From contig PFOM01000021.1 of the NCBI GenBank assembly GCA_002792535.1, forward strand, positions 1-41,990: a DNA stretch of 41,990 bases, given 5' to 3'. Positions 19,182-25,661 of this stretch are shown here, in pieces (position 1 is the stretch's first letter; each line of letters opens with the position of its first letter). This DNA is from Candidatus Peregrinibacteria bacterium CG_4_10_14_0_2_um_filter_38_24 (lineage in GTDB: Bacteria; Patescibacteriota; Gracilibacteria; UBA1369; LOWO2-01-FULL-3). Below the pieces are notes generated by a model. The model was not told the origin of the DNA. It did not search any database and saw only the letters and a program-made list of their open reading frames with translations. A program made the position numbers and the translations under genes.

Positions 19182-19451
19182 CTACTTGTTTTTTGAAAGC
19201 TTGTAGATTGCAAGGATTTCTTTTGCCGCCTTTTCGGATTTACCAGATTTTATTTGATCAACAACATGTGTGACCAAATGGTTCTGCAGAATCAAGTCCT
19301 CAACTCCGGAAAGAGCTTGCTTAACGGCTAGGGACTGCGTAATTATATCTATGCAGTATTTTTCCTCTTTTACCATGCGTTGTAGTCCCCTGATTTGGCC
19401 TTCTATAATTTTCAGACGACGTTCGGCTTTGCTTTTTATATCTTTTTTCAT
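19182..19451 (-). CDS. csoR: CsoR-family metal-sensing repressor, paralog 1
   Basis: 89 residues from ATG 19451: KAERRLKIIEGQIRGLQRMV, the conserved DNA-binding helix, then EEKYCIDIITQ and NHLVTHVVDQIKSG. The metal ligands fall at Cys33-His58-His62, matching the spacing of the C-H-C triad of copper CsoR but with His at the third place, as reported for Thermus thermophilus CsoR. The TTG start in the ORF track (19493) would translate the promoter and operator, so I reject it. A CsoR-type box lies directly upstream. It should repress its own promoter until Cu(I), or another thiophilic metal, binds. The sequence is close to paralog 2 at 20265. Confidence 0.9.
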   Translation of the reverse strand: MKKDIKSKAERRLKIIEGQIRGLQRMVKEEKYCIDIITQSLAVKQALSGVEDLILQNHLVTHVVDQIKSGKSEKAAKEILAIYKLSKNK

Positions 19452-19467
19452 AAATTCGCGGTTAGAA

Positions 19468-19482
19468 TACCCCCTAGGGGTG
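19468..19482 (-). promoter_or_regulatory. CsoR box O1 inside the csoR paralog 1 promoter
   Basis: TACCCCCTAGGGGTG is a near-perfect G/C palindrome of the type bound by copper CsoR. On the minus strand it lies between TTGACA and TATTCT, which are 18 bases apart, so repressor binding would block RNA polymerase. The predicted transcript has only about 5 bases before the ATG at 19451. Confidence 0.85.
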
Positions 19483-19501
19483 TTAATTGTCAATAATAAA
19501 C

Positions 19502-20130
19502 TTATTGTGCTGGATGTCGTGGAATTGCCCTGTACCTTGAAGTAATCATTTCATTTCTGTTTCTTCCATCTTGCCAGTCAATATTTCTGAACCATACAAT
19601 CTCATTTATGGATGGTTGATAATCTTTTTCCTTTGGAATGTTATGACTAAGGTATGGGTCTTGTAAAGTAGAAATTCTGCCGTCAGATGTCCCGTAGATT
19701 TTTACGTATGCATCATCGCCTTCAACATATGATTGAATAAAAATGAAGGATGGGGTGTCGTTTGTGAAAATTAAATCCGGTCCTGTGCTAAAAACTGTAG
19801 CATCCAAGCCCTCTCCGAATTTTTTGTAATAAGTGACGTATAGGCTATGAGGTTGACGTTCAGCGATCTGTAATCCTGCAAGGAGTGCAGATCGCTAGAC
19901 CGTAGTCGAGACTTGACATAATCCGCCTCCAAGAGTTTGAATCAAATCTTTCCAGTTATTACCGAGATTCCTAAACTTTCGTATGTTGTTTTTACCTCTA
20001 CTTCACCAATTTTGAGAGAGATTTCCCTGTTTTGTTTTTCAGGTTTTTCTAAATTTTGCTGAGAATTTGCTCCCATTACGGTCAAGATAATGACAACAGC
20101 AACCGTTGCGCCAAAGATGTATTTTTTCAT
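19502..20130 (-). pseudogene. Decayed vanW-family gene (deletion, frame change, amber stop)
   Basis: Two ORF-track pieces belong together. The 5' piece (ATG 20130 to TGA 19942) codes for a membrane/signal segment (KKYIFGATVAVVIILTVMG) and ISLKIGEVEVKTTYESLGIS, which resembles the start of a PG_binding_4 domain of VanW proteins. In another frame the DNA continues with LIQTLGGGLCQVSTTV, an in-frame TAG (19895-19897), RSALLAGLQIAERQPHS, LYVTYYKKFGEGLDATVF and the VanW C terminus to 19502. Intact members read CQVSTTLYxxALLAGL, so the TAG stands where Tyr is expected. The middle of the protein is missing. The 62-residue ORF may still be made. A CsoR box sits upstream. Confidence 0.78.
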
Positions 20131-20142
20131 TTTTGTTTTTTT

Positions 20143-20161
20143 GATACCCCTTAGGGGTATC
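20143..20161 (-). promoter_or_regulatory. CsoR box O2 upstream of the vanW remnant
   Basis: GATACCCCTTAGGGGTATC is palindromic except for the centre. It lies 13 bases before ATG 20130 and just downstream of a -10-like TATACT (minus strand, 20167-20172), so it would overlap the transcription start. The GTG start proposed in the ORF track (20163) would translate this box and is rejected. Confidence 0.8.
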
Positions 20162-20228: not shown

Positions 20229-20258
20229 TTGACATTACGTACCCCCTAGGGGTATTTT
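20229..20258 (+). promoter_or_regulatory. csoR paralog 2 promoter with embedded CsoR box O3
   Basis: TTGACA (20229-20234) and TATTTT (20253-20258) are 18 bases apart and enclose TACCCCCTAGGGGTA (20240-20254), a perfect palindrome apart from its central base. The ATG at 20265 is only 6 bases after the -10, so the mRNA is predicted to be leaderless or nearly so. Confidence 0.85.
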
Positions 20259-20264
20259 GGTGTC

Positions 20265-20534
20265 ATGAATTATGCTATTAAAAAGAAAGTAATTCGTAGG
20301 CTTAAAATTATTGAAGGGCAAGTCCGGGGGCTGCGGAATATGGTTGAGAGGGAAGATTATTGTATCGATATTATCAATCAGTCGCTTGCGGCAAAAAGTG
20401 CTTTGTCCGTAGTGGAAGATTTGATGCTTGAAAATCATCTTTCTTGCCATGTTGTCGAACAAATAAAGTCCGGTAATGTTGCAAAGGCCACTAAAGAAAT
20501 TTTGAACGTCTACAAGCTTTCAAAAAATAAATAA
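20265..20534 (+). CDS. csoR: CsoR-family metal-sensing repressor, paralog 2
   Basis: 89 residues, the same length as paralog 1 and clearly related (VIRRLKIIEGQVRGLRNMV; YCIDIINQSLAAKSAL; KSGNVAKATKEILNVYKLSKNK). Ligand positions are Cys33, His58 and His62, with an extra Cys61 in NHLSCHVV next to the expected third ligand. It heads a plus-strand run with the DUF411 gene 17 bases downstream, so it most likely represses its own operon through O3 and releases DNA on binding Cu(I). Metal choice is inferred from the operator type and the DUF411 neighbour; the C-H-H set also occurs in Ni/Co-sensing RcnR proteins. Confidence 0.92.
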   Translation: MNYAIKKKVIRRLKIIEGQVRGLRNMVEREDYCIDIINQSLAAKSALSVVEDLMLENHLSCHVVEQIKSGNVAKATKEILNVYKLSKNK

Positions 20535-20551
20535 TTTATAATTTCACGTAT

Positions 20552-21046
20552 ATGTCTAAGAAAATACTTTTCATTGTTGGTGCAATTGTATTGCTTGTTG
20601 TAGGTGTAGTTGTATTTAGTAATGCAAAGACTAAAGAAAATAGATTACGATTGTCGGCTCTTACGCAGGACGTTAAGGCTGTCGTTGTTGCTGATTCTAC
20701 CTGTGGATGCTGTAAGCTCTATGCTAAATATCTTGAGCAACAGGGGTTTGATGTAGATTTACAGGAAAAATCTCAGGCTGAGGTGGATGCTTATAAAAAA
20801 ACTAATAATATTCCTGATTCTTTGAAAAGTTGTCATACGACTCGCATAGGAAAATATGTTATCGAAGGCCATATTCCTATGGAAGGAATTTCAAAATTGC
20901 TTGAAGAAAAACCTGATGCGCTCGGCATTGGTATGCCTGGAATGCCTTCCAGTTCTCCTGGAATGCCTGGGCCTAAAAATATGCCTTTTATCATGAATCT
21001 TATTACTAATGACGGGCAGAAAGGTGATTTATTCTTAAAAATCTAA
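20552..21046 (+). CDS. DUF411 metal-binding protein, membrane-anchored, Met-rich tail
   Basis: 164 residues. A hydrophobic N-terminal segment (5-24) anchors or exports the protein. The DUF411 core has STCGCCKLYAKYLEQQGF (Cys51, 53, 54), then IPDSLKSCHTTRIGKYVIEGHIP with the conserved Cys and His pair. The last part, IGMPGMPSSSPGMPGPKNMP, places several methionines that could bind Cu(I). DUF411 proteins are found with copper resistance genes in many bacteria. It is the second gene of the csoR paralog 2 run and ends 6 bases before the next gene. The likely role is copper binding or transfer outside the membrane. Confidence 0.88.
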   Translation: MSKKILFIVGAIVLLVVGVVVFSNAKTKENRLRLSALTQDVKAVVVADSTCGCCKLYAKYLEQQGFDVDLQEKSQAEVDAYKKTNNIPDSLKSCHTTRIGKYVIEGHIPMEGISKLLEEKPDALGIGMPGMPSSSPGMPGPKNMPFIMNLITNDGQKGDLFLKI

Positions 21047-21052
21047 ATAATT

Positions 21053-21592
21053 ATGTTGAAAAAATTCTCTGCATTGTTTGCTACGGCCTTTGGAATTAAT
21101 ATTTTGTTTTCGAAAGTCGCACTTGCTCATTGTCCGCTTTGTACAATTGGGGCTGGAGCGGTTGCTGTTGGAGCGATGTGGCTGGGAGTAAGTTCTTTTT
21201 CTGTGGCTATTTTTATTGGAGCCTTTGCTATGGCAATTGGTTTGTGGATTGGGAAGTTGATAAAAAAACAGTATGTTCCGCATCAAACTTTGATAATCGG
21301 GCTGATATCTTTTGTTACAACTGTTTTTCCGCTTGAGCCTTTATTCTACGATAATACTGCGGTTTTTATCTCTCTGACAGGAGATTATGGAACTTGGTTG
21401 AATACGACTTATGTGATTGATAAATTTTTGATTGGAAGCGTTATCGGGGCGCTTATTCTCATTTTTAGTCCTAGAATCAGTAGATCTATTTCCAAGGCAA
21501 GAAAAAATAAAATGATTCATTATCAAGGAATGATTGTTACTTTTTCGACTCTCTTATTGGTAGCTTTATTTTATGAAATATTTTTGAGATGA
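21053..21592 (+). CDS. Unknown membrane protein with HCPLC motif, copper operon
   Basis: 179 residues, not a family I recognise. The N terminus looks like a signal peptide whose cleavage after ALA (residue 25) would leave His26 as the first residue, followed by CPLC and a glycine/alanine-rich span (TIGAGAVAVGAMWLG). Three to four more membrane spans follow, separated by a basic loop (GKLIKKQYVPH) and another (SPRISRSISKARKNK). Placement directly after DUF411 and overlap with the next gene by ATGA indicate joint translation and a copper-related role. The HCPLC cluster at the outer face could bind Cu(I). Alternatives are a thiol-redox or permease role. Confidence 0.7.
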   Translation: MLKKFSALFATAFGINILFSKVALAHCPLCTIGAGAVAVGAMWLGVSSFSVAIFIGAFAMAIGLWIGKLIKKQYVPHQTLIIGLISFVTTVFPLEPLFYDNTAVFISLTGDYGTWLNTTYVIDKFLIGSVIGALILIFSPRISRSISKARKNKMIHYQGMIVTFSTLLLVALFYEIFLR

Positions 21593-22038
21593 ATGATTCT
21601 GTTTTTTTAATTTTTGGGTCAATTACTATATTATTTCTTTTGTTCATTATTTTTAGAGCATTTTTGAAGATAAGAGTTTGCGCTTTGTGTGCGAGTGTTG
21701 GTTTGACCTGGGTTGCATTATTGACTTTATATCGTCTAAATCTTTTCAACAATCCCCTACTTATAGCTTTATTGATTGGAAATAGCGTTGTCGGTTTGTA
21801 TTATTTGGTTGAGAAAAAAATCTCTGAGAAATTTCATGTTTTCAGATTGCCCTTTTTCTTGACTCTACTTTTGGTTGGATATTCTTTGATTGGAATTTTT
21901 GATTTTGCTGAGATTGCTTCGAGTATTGTTCTTGTTTTGGGGTTATGGGGCGTGTTTGGACTTATGTATTTCTATAGGAATAATTCGCGTTTCAAGTCAT
22001 CTGTTTCGCATATAATAGATTGTTGTAAAAATTGGTAA
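21589..22038 (+). CDS. Unknown membrane protein with CALC motif, copper operon
   Basis: 149 residues with about five hydrophobic segments. After the first span comes KIRVCALCASVGLTW, with Cys31 and Cys34 set at a membrane edge like the HCPLC of the upstream protein. The tail reads HIIDCCKNW, a further Cys pair. It starts inside the stop of the preceding gene (ATGA), so the two proteins are likely made in fixed ratio and may form a complex. No family was recognised. The DNA has no Shine-Dalgarno sequence of its own. Confidence 0.68.
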   Translation: MNDSVFLIFGSITILFLLFIIFRAFLKIRVCALCASVGLTWVALLTLYRLNLFNNPLLIALLIGNSVVGLYYLVEKKISEKFHVFRLPFFLTLLLVGYSLIGIFDFAEIASSIVLVLGLWGVFGLMYFYRNNSRFKSSVSHIIDCCKNW

Positions 22039-22062
22039 TTTAAAATTTAACCATATTTATTT

Positions 22063-22977
22063 ATGAAAAAGAAATCTAAAAAATTCTGGAAAAAATATAG
22101 TAGACCGTTTTCTGTTGCTTTATTGGTTGTTTCTATTTTGACTTTTAATTTGTTATTTAGGGTGGAAATTTTTCTACGTTGGAATGTTTCTACTACTGAG
22201 AATACTTTTGAAAATAAAACGGCAAATTTGAAAAAGAATCTTTTTCCTGATGGAGGCAAAGAATTACCTGTAAAATGGGGAGATCTCGGCCAAAAATTGG
22301 TCGCAGATGGTGTGATCGATCAAGATCTTTTTGAGTCTATTTACGTCGAAAGAGGAGGGATGAATGAATATGAAAAAAATCTAATGTATGGTGCTGAGAA
22401 CAATAATCTAAAAATTACGGCCGAAAATGCGGGGTTTTTATTGAATGTCTTTTGGGGATTGGGCCTTTCGAATAAAAACCCCATACTTGAGAAGGGGCCG
22501 ATGCAAGATGTGCAATATGGAGGCGCAGGAAGTTTTGCTTCGACCGGTGGTTGGACTTTGGGGGTTGGAGATGCGATGAATCACTATAGTATGCATAATT
22601 TTATTCCTTTGACTGACGAACAGCAGATTTTGGTTGAGGCGGTCTCTCAAAATATTTATAGACCTTGCTGTGGCAATTCTACGTATTTTCCTGATTGCAA
22701 TCATGGAATGGCAATGCTCGGGTTTTTGGAGTTAATGGCGTCACAAAATGCTACTGAGAAGGAAATGTACGATGCGGCTTTAGCCTTAAATTCCTATTGG
22801 TTCCCGAGTAACTATCTGACTATTGCGAGTTATTTTGAAAAAGAAGGTGTGTCTTGGGGGGATGTTTCTCCGGTTGACGTTTTGGGGTTCAATTATTCAA
22901 GCTCTGTAGGCTTCAGGCAAGTTCTTTCTCAGGTTAATCCAGTACAGACGCAAGGTGGCTCAGGATGCTCGGTTTAG
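22063..22977 (+). CDS. Unknown exported protein with CC-x8-CNHGMAM motif, copper operon
   Basis: 304 residues. One N-terminal span (FSVALLVVSILTFNLLF) anchors it, and the rest is soluble and probably outside. Striking blocks are GGWTLGVGDAMNHYSMHNF and YRPCCGNSTYFPDCNHGMAM (residues about 200-218), which bring together three Cys, one His and two Met, a set typical of copper sites. Tyr/Trp-rich stretches follow, and the chain ends GGSGCSV. I do not recognise a named family. It is the last gene of the csoR run, 24 bases after the CALC protein gene. It may be a copper-loaded extracytoplasmic protein or an enzyme; function open. Confidence 0.72.
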   Translation: MKKKSKKFWKKYSRPFSVALLVVSILTFNLLFRVEIFLRWNVSTTENTFENKTANLKKNLFPDGGKELPVKWGDLGQKLVADGVIDQDLFESIYVERGGMNEYEKNLMYGAENNNLKITAENAGFLLNVFWGLGLSNKNPILEKGPMQDVQYGGAGSFASTGGWTLGVGDAMNHYSMHNFIPLTDEQQILVEAVSQNIYRPCCGNSTYFPDCNHGMAMLGFLELMASQNATEKEMYDAALALNSYWFPSNYLTIASYFEKEGVSWGDVSPVDVLGFNYSSSVGFRQVLSQVNPVQTQGGSGCSV

Positions 22978-24140: not shown

Positions 24141-25661
24141 TTAATTTGGTATGCGTTTCTTGGCTGCTATGTTTATACTGTGTTTGTTGTATCTTTTTCG
24201 TATTTCGCTGGATAGTTTTGGGTCGTCTCCAAACTTTTGTAGTAAGTCTGCAAGACCTGTGCTTATTTTATTTTCAGATGCGGATTCGATGTTCACACTA
24301 CTGCTTCCGAAGTATATCCATCGTTTGCCATTGTAAAGAAAATTCTCAACGATATTTCTTGATTTTATTCCTTCTGCATCCATTAATGCTGCGGCATAAA
24401 TTAATCCGTCGAGAATGTCGCATCTTTTTCTGACGTCGAAATCAGAATTATTTGCTACACTTAGTACTGTAGCATTACTTGATGGTACATATTCTCTTAA
24501 TAGCGCTGGTGCTCCTTCGTTGTCCGTTGTTGTGCCATACATTTTAGGAGTCCCTGTCTTTAGTCTTGATAAGTGTCGTGTCGGATTTGCTCTTCTTAGT
24601 AGTTTTTCAAATGATTTTGTGCGATTTACTTCTCCTTCAGCTAAAGCTTTATTTATGCCTCCTTCCGTCGTCTCTTCATTGTCAAATGATTTTACTAGAA
24701 ATCTTCTGTGGATTTGTTTACCTTTTTTGTCTATAAGTGAAACAATATATGCTGTGAATGAAGATCCTATGTAACTGATTTTTTGTTTTGGAATGAATTT
24801 TTCTATTGCAAGGAATACTTCTCCGTCTTCCAATATGCCGTTTGCTCTTATTGTTTCCTCTGACATAAATTTGTCCCCTGTTTCGTGAATTTCTAGCATT
24901 TTATCTACCTTTTTACTCATCCATCCTGCTTCGTATTTGATTGCTTCAACTTTTTTCTCCGGTGTGTCTTCGTTGCTACCGTGGCCGACATTTCCTCTTA
25001 TGTCCCAACCATATCTTCCACGAATTGTTTGCCCTGTTGTGTCCTTATCCGGCATTGTAGGTCCAAGTTGTCTTCTCCATTCATCTACGGCTCCTCCTTG
25101 CTCTGAATAAAGAAGTACCATTGTTGTGGCGCCACTTGTCATATATTTTTCGAAACGAGCCCATGCGGTCGTTTTTCCGTTTGTTTCAGCATCCGGCTTT
25201 GCGCTTAACATATCGTAAATACTCGCATAGAAATATTTGACATCACTCGGGGTCATATGTGTAGGCAACGCAAAAAGAACTCTTAATGGAGGTAAAATTT
25301 CTTCACGTATGATTTTGCTTGCTATTGTGCTGTCACTTGATTCACTTTTTCCTTTATGAACTTGTGGTTTAATTAAAGCGACTGTGATTTTTTCTGCTTC
25401 TATTAATTCTTGTAGTTTTGGATTTTTTAAAAGCTGAGATACGAGTCTGACTCTTTCTTTTTCTCTTTCGTGCAGTTGCACTGCATTACATTCAGGGTCT
25501 GTTGTTAATCCTTCCTCTTTTGCAAAATCGTCAGGCCGTACATCACAAAGTCTTGCATTTATGTTTTCACGGCAATGATACGGAGTTGAGATAACCGGAG
25601 AAAGTGTCAAATCTTCCGGAAAGTCCTTTATGTCTTCTGGTAAAGATTCTTTTGTATACAT
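24141..25661 (-). CDS. NDK-like domain fused to a domain shared with the 23129 protein
   Basis: 506 residues. Residues ~90-245 match nucleoside diphosphate kinase: ITVALIKPQ with Lys98, FEKYMTSGATTMVLLY, WRRQLGPTMPD, QTIRGRYG and NVGHGSNE with the catalytic His227 in an N-x-x-H-G-S context. Short inserts make it longer than a usual ~140-residue NDK. Residues ~270-480 repeat the blocks of the 23129 protein (GILEDGEVFLAIEKFIP; SSFTAYIVSLID; ILDGLIYAAALMDAEGI; GKRWIYFGSS), but the late Asp-Gly-Gly is changed to FGSS. An N-terminal ~85-residue Cys-containing extension precedes both. The protein could move phosphate between nucleotides and an unknown target; role inferred only from the domains. 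Confidence 0.72.
   Translation of the reverse strand: MYTKESLPEDIKDFPEDLTLSPVISTPYHCRENINARLCDVRPDDFAKEEGLTTDPECNAVQLHEREKERVRLVSQLLKNPKLQELIEAEKITVALIKPQVHKGKSESSDSTIASKIIREEILPPLRVLFALPTHMTPSDVKYFYASIYDMLSAKPDAETNGKTTAWARFEKYMTSGATTMVLLYSEQGGAVDEWRRQLGPTMPDKDTTGQTIRGRYGWDIRGNVGHGSNEDTPEKKVEAIKYEAGWMSKKVDKMLEIHETGDKFMSEETIRANGILEDGEVFLAIEKFIPKQKISYIGSSFTAYIVSLIDKKGKQIHRRFLVKSFDNEETTEGGINKALAEGEVNRTKSFEKLLRRANPTRHLSRLKTGTPKMYGTTTDNEGAPALLREYVPSSNATVLSVANNSDFDVRKRCDILDGLIYAAALMDAEGIKSRNIVENFLYNGKRWIYFGSSSVNIESASENKISTGLADLLQKFGDDPKLSSEIRKRYNKHSINIAAKKRIPN

Follow-up and report, generated by a model that had tools for sequence, protein, structure and literature searches.

A CsoR-controlled operon of a Peregrinibacteria genome encodes a candidate extracytoplasmic thiol-redox module with three proteins lacking family matches

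Five genes on the plus strand of the window analyzed here, a 41,990-nucleotide stretch that is contig 19 of a 1.10-Mb genome (98.5% complete), form an operon of csoR, DUF411/CopG, P3, P4, and P5 (Table 1). On balance, we favor the view that this is an autoregulated metal-stress operon serving an extracytoplasmic thiol-redox module of CopG, P3/P4, and P5. The operon and its operator are established, as are the conservation of its members, their association with other genes, their fusions, and their invariant cysteines. A sequence-only reading of the same DNA had reported this gene order, with gaps of 17, 6, -4, and 24 bases, and had proposed an undescribed system. The gaps are as reported, and csoR-DUF411-P3-P4-P5 is real, conserved and, as far as the searched libraries show, undescribed; a literature search on csoR and copper in Patescibacteria/CPR found nothing relevant. 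The novelty lies in P3, P4, and P5 as a set, while csoR and DUF411/CopG belong to known families.

Results and Discussion

The operon and its products

The product of the DUF411 gene matched the CopG structure 6wis (3.1e-19), with the CxCC and Met motifs aligned, and the products of genes 3 to 5 (P3, P4, and P5) gave nothing above chance in Pfam or NCBIfam. Their cysteine motifs are those previously claimed, i.e., HCPLC in P3, CALC and a CC near the C-terminus (DCCKNW) in P4, and CC-x8-CNHGMAM in P5. The description of all three as membrane proteins suits P3 and P4 better than P5, since the latter is soluble apart from its single N-terminal transmembrane segment. Cysteines number two in P3 and four each in P4 and P5. 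Cu(I) storage in the manner of Csp, a Cys-rich four-helix bundle, was rejected since these are too few. Elsewhere in the window, a nucleoside diphosphate kinase-like domain (2e-10) is embedded in the 506-aa product of the minus-strand gene at 24141-25661, and an adjoining gene encodes a 334-aa protein for which no match was found.

Table 1. Coordinates of the operon, its regulatory sites, neighboring features and plasmid homologues of P5.
Feature	Position	Strand	Evidence
Second csoR (Cys-His-His), with its own operator	19182..19451	-	PF02583, 1.9e-23
Second csoR promoter, TTGACA-18-TATTCT, with operator 19468-19482 inside	19464..19493	-	
Small secreted ORF (MKKYIFGA...), divergent from operon	19942..20130	-	no family match
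Second operator, TACCCCTTAGGGGTA, ahead of divergent small secreted ORF	20145..20159		exact palindrome
Operon promoter, sigma-70-type, TTGACA-18-TATTTT	20229..20258	+	10/12 consensus matches
CsoR-type operator, TACCCCCTAGGGGTA, between -35 and -10 of operon promoter	20240..20254		exact palindrome
csoR, CsoR/RcnR-family repressor	20265..20534	+	PF02583, 6.5e-23, above cut-off
DUF411/CopG family, membrane-anchored thioredoxin-like copper protein, CGCC + Met motif	20552..21046	+	PF04214, 3.4e-22
P3, signal-peptide-like start, AxA-HCPLC, multi-pass membrane protein	21053..21592	+	
P4, helical membrane protein, C31, C34, C145, C146 invariant	21589..22038	+	
P5, one N-terminal TM segment + extracytoplasmic domain	22063..22977	+	
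P5 homologue, Burkholderia contaminans plasmid (L230)	9860-10810		twin-arginine-like leader
P5 homologue, Paraburkholderia fungorum plasmid (L231)	9848-10765		twin-arginine-like leader

Promoter, operators, and repressors

The CsoR box that the sequence-only reading had placed in the operon promoter was confirmed as an exact palindrome, TACCCCCTAGGGGTA, between TTGACA and TATTTT. Since the ATG of csoR lies only 6 bases past the -10, the operon transcript is probably leaderless. Two exact TACCCC-N3-GGGGTA palindromes (20145 and 20240) and a third with one mismatch (19468) occur in the window, where 0.19 would be expected. In the whole 1.10-Mb genome, a search allowing at most one mismatch returned those three sites only, and a reversed-pattern control returned 0. 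The ORF at 19942..20130 is possibly in the same regulon as the operon. The same palindrome was found just 5' of csoR, or at its start, in many loci that carry P5. The second csoR is apparently monocistronic, such that two related repressors would converge on one tiny regulon; between it and the operon, a minus-strand fragment (19502-19807) has a weak VanW-like match (1e-4, under the cut-off).

Alignment to solved CsoRs put the ligand positions of the operon CsoR at C33-H58-H62 (Cys-His-His), with an extra C61, and not at the canonical Cys-His-Cys Cu(I) site. Cys-His-His was found in both csoRs of the window and in 30/47 csoRs near P5. The CsoR of Thermus thermophilus, which has a similar ligand set, senses copper among other metals. 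Since a His at the third ligand position also occurs in the Ni/Co sensors RcnR and DmeR (PMC7055735), the ligand set of the operon CsoR does not prove which metal is sensed.

A copper pump elsewhere in the genome

The operon had been described as having no copper ATPase and as replacing CopA/CopZ in a reduced genome. The first statement holds for the operon and fails for the genome, as contig 37 carries an operon of csoR3, a gene whose DsbD_2 product also has HMA and cupredoxin domains, copZ, and copA (a 783-aa CopA with CPC). Replacement is ruled out since the genome encodes both proteins in this separate operon; moreover, P5 of relatives adjoins or is fused to an ATPase. Since the CsoR of the copA operon is a different one with the canonical Cys-His-Cys site, and none of the operator palindromes occurs there, the window represents a separate regulon. 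Directly 5' of csoR3-copZ-copA on contig 37 (L042, 1995-4881), apparent zinc-type ABC transporter genes and a Fur-family gene were seen by eye. The genome search found no CcdA/DsbD_TM match, no multicopper oxidase match, and no cytochrome c assembly gene (no PF01578). P3, P4, and P5 probably constitute a thiol-based copper-protection module that works beside the usual copper pump and not instead of it.

The P5 family and its gene neighborhood

P5 is present in 34/379 genomes of the phylum and in at least 571 confirmed loci of a GTDB scan, mostly in Patescibacteria, and has no Pfam, NCBIfam, or PDB match. The closest loci listed are those of Candidatus Peregrinibacteria (L080 and L081; 59-63% in P5) and, together with neighbors from the phylum search, they assign the genome to Patescibacteria. 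The family motif is RPCC-N-x-T-x-FPDCNHG, followed by a GGCGV-like tail at the C-terminus. R200, C202, C203, N205, F209, P210, D211, C212, N213, H214, G215, and M218 are invariant in 78/78 P5 proteins, and M216 is kept in 77/78.

In the phylum sample, a P-type ATPase lies within 5 kb of P5 at 26/36 loci (two each from three genomes among them). The corresponding p value of ~2e-33, calculated from a rough expectation of 2.6% per locus (about two ATPases per Mb), is a guide only, and such p values are overstated because related loci are not independent. Over the same distance, DUF1573 was found at 24 of these loci, CcdA at 22, and csoR at 16. At least one of a P-type ATPase, csoR, and DUF411 is found no more than 5 kb from P5 at 30/36 of the phylum-sample loci and at 62/80 of the GTDB loci, the 80 being drawn from the at least 571 and carrying titles that are mostly patescibacterial and otherwise 'bacterium' bins. 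At five loci of the phylum sample, neither an ATPase nor csoR, DUF411, or a multicopper oxidase lies close to P5. In one genome (G270), csoR-DUF411-P3-P4-P5 recurs in the identical order, and a CPH ATPase comes next. In G035, P5 forms the C-terminal part of a fusion with a CPH-type ATPase, and in G136 it is fused to a rhodanese; longer forms carry a fused membrane CxxC domain, and one of these adjoins a multicopper oxidase.

The conserved residues of P5 bear on a rather unlikely alternative, namely direct Cu(I) handling, where a relay or set of chaperones would bind the metal through Cys, His, and Met and pass periplasmic copper on, the thiols carrying metal and not electrons. The conservation of C202, C203, C212, H214, M216, and M218, the fusion of P5 to an ATPase, and the N-terminal HCPLC of P3, which follows an AxA-like site in most members, all speak for this role. 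However, the CcdA, DUF1573, rhodanese, and glutaredoxin partners indicate thiol chemistry, CopA and CopZ are already in the genome, and the cysteines would not suffice for storage.

Homologues of P5 also occur in copper and mercury resistance islands on plasmids of Burkholderia contaminans and Paraburkholderia fungorum; a P5 homologue of the latter has the accession WP_028197075.1. On the B. contaminans plasmid, ~70 bases separate P5 from the P-type ATPase that precedes it, and the island also contains cueR, CcdA, thioredoxin, SCO, and DUF411. The twin-arginine-like leaders of the plasmid proteins would fit export of a folded protein. These homologues adjoin a SAM methyltransferase, and methyltransferase-like genes lie near P5 in some Patescibacteria. 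No P5 was found in phages. We consider it improbable that the operon responds to another metal (Ni/Co, Ag, or Hg), to reactive sulfur, or to an oxidant, in place of copper; the Cys-His-His sites of both csoRs in the window and of 30/47 csoRs near P5 point in this direction, as do the rhodanese, DsrE, and mer genes that neighbor P5 at some loci, but CopG/DUF411 is a copper family for which a Cu cluster has been solved, most ATPases near P5 are of the CPH or CPC type, and the Burkholderia island contains cueR and SCO.

Resemblance of P5 to CcmH

The AlphaFold model of P5 (pLDDT 90, pTM 0.82) had no significant match in Foldseek. The only plausible one was the three-helix fold of CcmH (2hl7; prob 0.75, TMt 0.64, 1.5 A over 59 columns, E 2.3), and in the VIA comparison of P5 with CcmH, Z was 4.9 over 77 residues, which is below the chance level for helical models. 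With the trimmed P5 domain, hhalign gave 67-73% against 11 CcmH/NrfF sequences, a match that needed both the trimming and a CcmH alignment: the whole A2 alignment reached only 11% against the CcmH profile, and with E. coli CcmH alone just a membrane segment of the full P5 alignment was matched. The P5-CcmH profile score was 30.5, while column shuffles had a mean of 11.6 and a maximum of 23.7 (0/300 reached the real score). In the hhalign alignment, RPCC of P5 pairs with RCPxC, and DCNHGMA with DSNAxxA, of CcmH/NrfF. The LRCxxC motif of CcmH/NrfF is not kept, RPCC being present in 77/78 P5 proteins and RSCC in one, and the genome, lacking PF01578, does not provide the cytochrome c maturation context of CcmH. 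Taken as a whole, these data are suggestive of a weak likeness between the C-terminal half of P5 and CcmH, a thiol reductase (PMC12285233), which may reflect homology.

P3 and P4

Strong homologues of P3 adjoin DUF411 in 7/7 cases among the 379 genomes, DUF411 being present in 10 of the 379 (p ~6e-13), and almost all P4 loci also have csoR, CcdA, DUF1573, or DUF411-P3. Together with the counts for P5, these results bear out a co-occurrence of all three proteins with metal genes. P4 accompanies either DUF1573-CcdA or DUF411-P3, and some genomes have DUF411-P3-P4 without P5 (L202, L203, and L204). Cleavage by signal peptidase at the AxA site would leave P3 with a mature N-terminus of His-Cys. 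P3 and P4 were rejected as one family (hhalign 13%). Neither matched the DsbD_TM domain, PDB sequence relatives were absent for P3 and at chance level only for P4, the fold of P4 had no match above chance, and neither protein was found on plasmids.

Weaker P3 homologues, mostly with V for His (AVCPVC), occur in ~40 genomes, and the 20 loci examined lie away from metal genes. At about half of these 20, a secreted glutaredoxin-like gene is immediately 5' of P3 or fused to it. Since DUF411 is thioredoxin-like, the DUF411-P3 arrangement repeats the glutaredoxin-P3 pairing. At L210-L229, distant P3 homologues are often accompanied by a secreted glutaredoxin and then by a conserved unnamed protein (DLSSDEDLSIAIMNLISIEEH); this glutaredoxin-P3-DLSSDEDLSIAIMNLISIEEH set is a second widespread unnamed thiol module in patescibacterial genomes. 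The distant P3 homologues would agree with a role of P3, P4, and P5 as general disulfide machinery co-transcribed with metal genes by chance, which we nevertheless regard as very improbable, as P4, the HCPLC clade of P3, and the majority of P5 loci are linked with metal genes.

Among the 80 GTDB loci with P5, CcdA is present at 56 and P3 at 10, and none has both (p 1.2e-6, a value that shared ancestry inflates). Since CcdA and P3 never share a P5 locus, this suggests that P3 fills the place of CcdA.

Proposed role of the operon

Of the copper relay or storage system proposed earlier, storage fell with the four cysteines of P5, and a thiol-redox role fits better than a plain metal relay because of the CcmH-like domain, the CcdA and glutaredoxin partners, and the CopG component. 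We therefore return to the thiol-redox module as the preferred reading. When metal is absent, CsoR would occupy the palindrome between -35 and -10 and block transcription, and metal, most likely copper, would release it from the operator. The products would be CopG/DUF411 (thioredoxin-like and Cu-cluster binding), the dithiol membrane proteins P3 (HCPLC) and P4 (CxxC and CC), and P5, a membrane-anchored, CcmH-like dithiol domain with a vicinal CC and DCNHG. P3/P4, taking the role that CcdA has in most relatives, may supply CopG and P5 with reducing equivalents; CopG and P5 in turn could hold copper as thiol-bound Cu(I) or mend copper-oxidized thiols outside the membrane, next to a copper-exporting P1B ATPase. 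CopG proteins are Cu-thiol oxidoreductases with a cysteine-bridged Cu cluster (PMC7558416; PMC8456105), and ScsB/ScsC are a DsbD/DsbC-like redox pair that bind Cu(I) (PMC8900818); the putative relay from P3/P4 to CopG/P5 is modeled on these proteins, on CcmH, and on gene context. We infer the identity of the metal, the direction of electron flow, the homology of P5 with CcmH, and the substitution of P3/P4 for CcdA.

More tentatively, P5 could be a copper-thiol oxidoreductase of a new class, in which a CcmH-type domain no longer serves cytochrome c maturation, bears a vicinal CC and a Cys-His site, and is fed by CcdA or P3/P4. This class would be widespread in Patescibacteria and present on Burkholderia plasmids. 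P5 is a sizeable family, tied to metal export, in hosts that are hardly culturable. Since Burkholderiales that can be cultured carry homologues on plasmids, the function of P5 can be tested directly. If true, the proposed module would extend the membrane dithiol carriers beyond CcdA/DsbD and would give a CcmH-like domain a part in metal tolerance where cytochrome c maturation is absent from the genome.

Comparison with known systems

The C-terminal half of P5 gives a weak fold and profile match to CcmH/NrfF, with the Cys pair and D-x-N-x-x-x-A in register; P5 differs in having a vicinal CC and not CxxC, an extra Cys and His, and a genome without a cytochrome c assembly gene. Gene 2 is a member of CopG/CutG (DUF411) but is here in an operon with csoR and P3-P4-P5, and not with cueO or cus genes. 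Like ScsABCD (suppressor of copper sensitivity), the operon may encode a copper-linked extracytoplasmic thiol relay of a membrane reductase and a thioredoxin-fold partner; however, P3/P4 have no DsbD-type domain, and the membrane components are CxxC proteins without a family match. Finally, whereas the window operon has no ATPase or CopZ, both being encoded elsewhere under a different CsoR, it shares with csoR-copZ-copA operons CsoR autoregulation via a G-tract palindrome.
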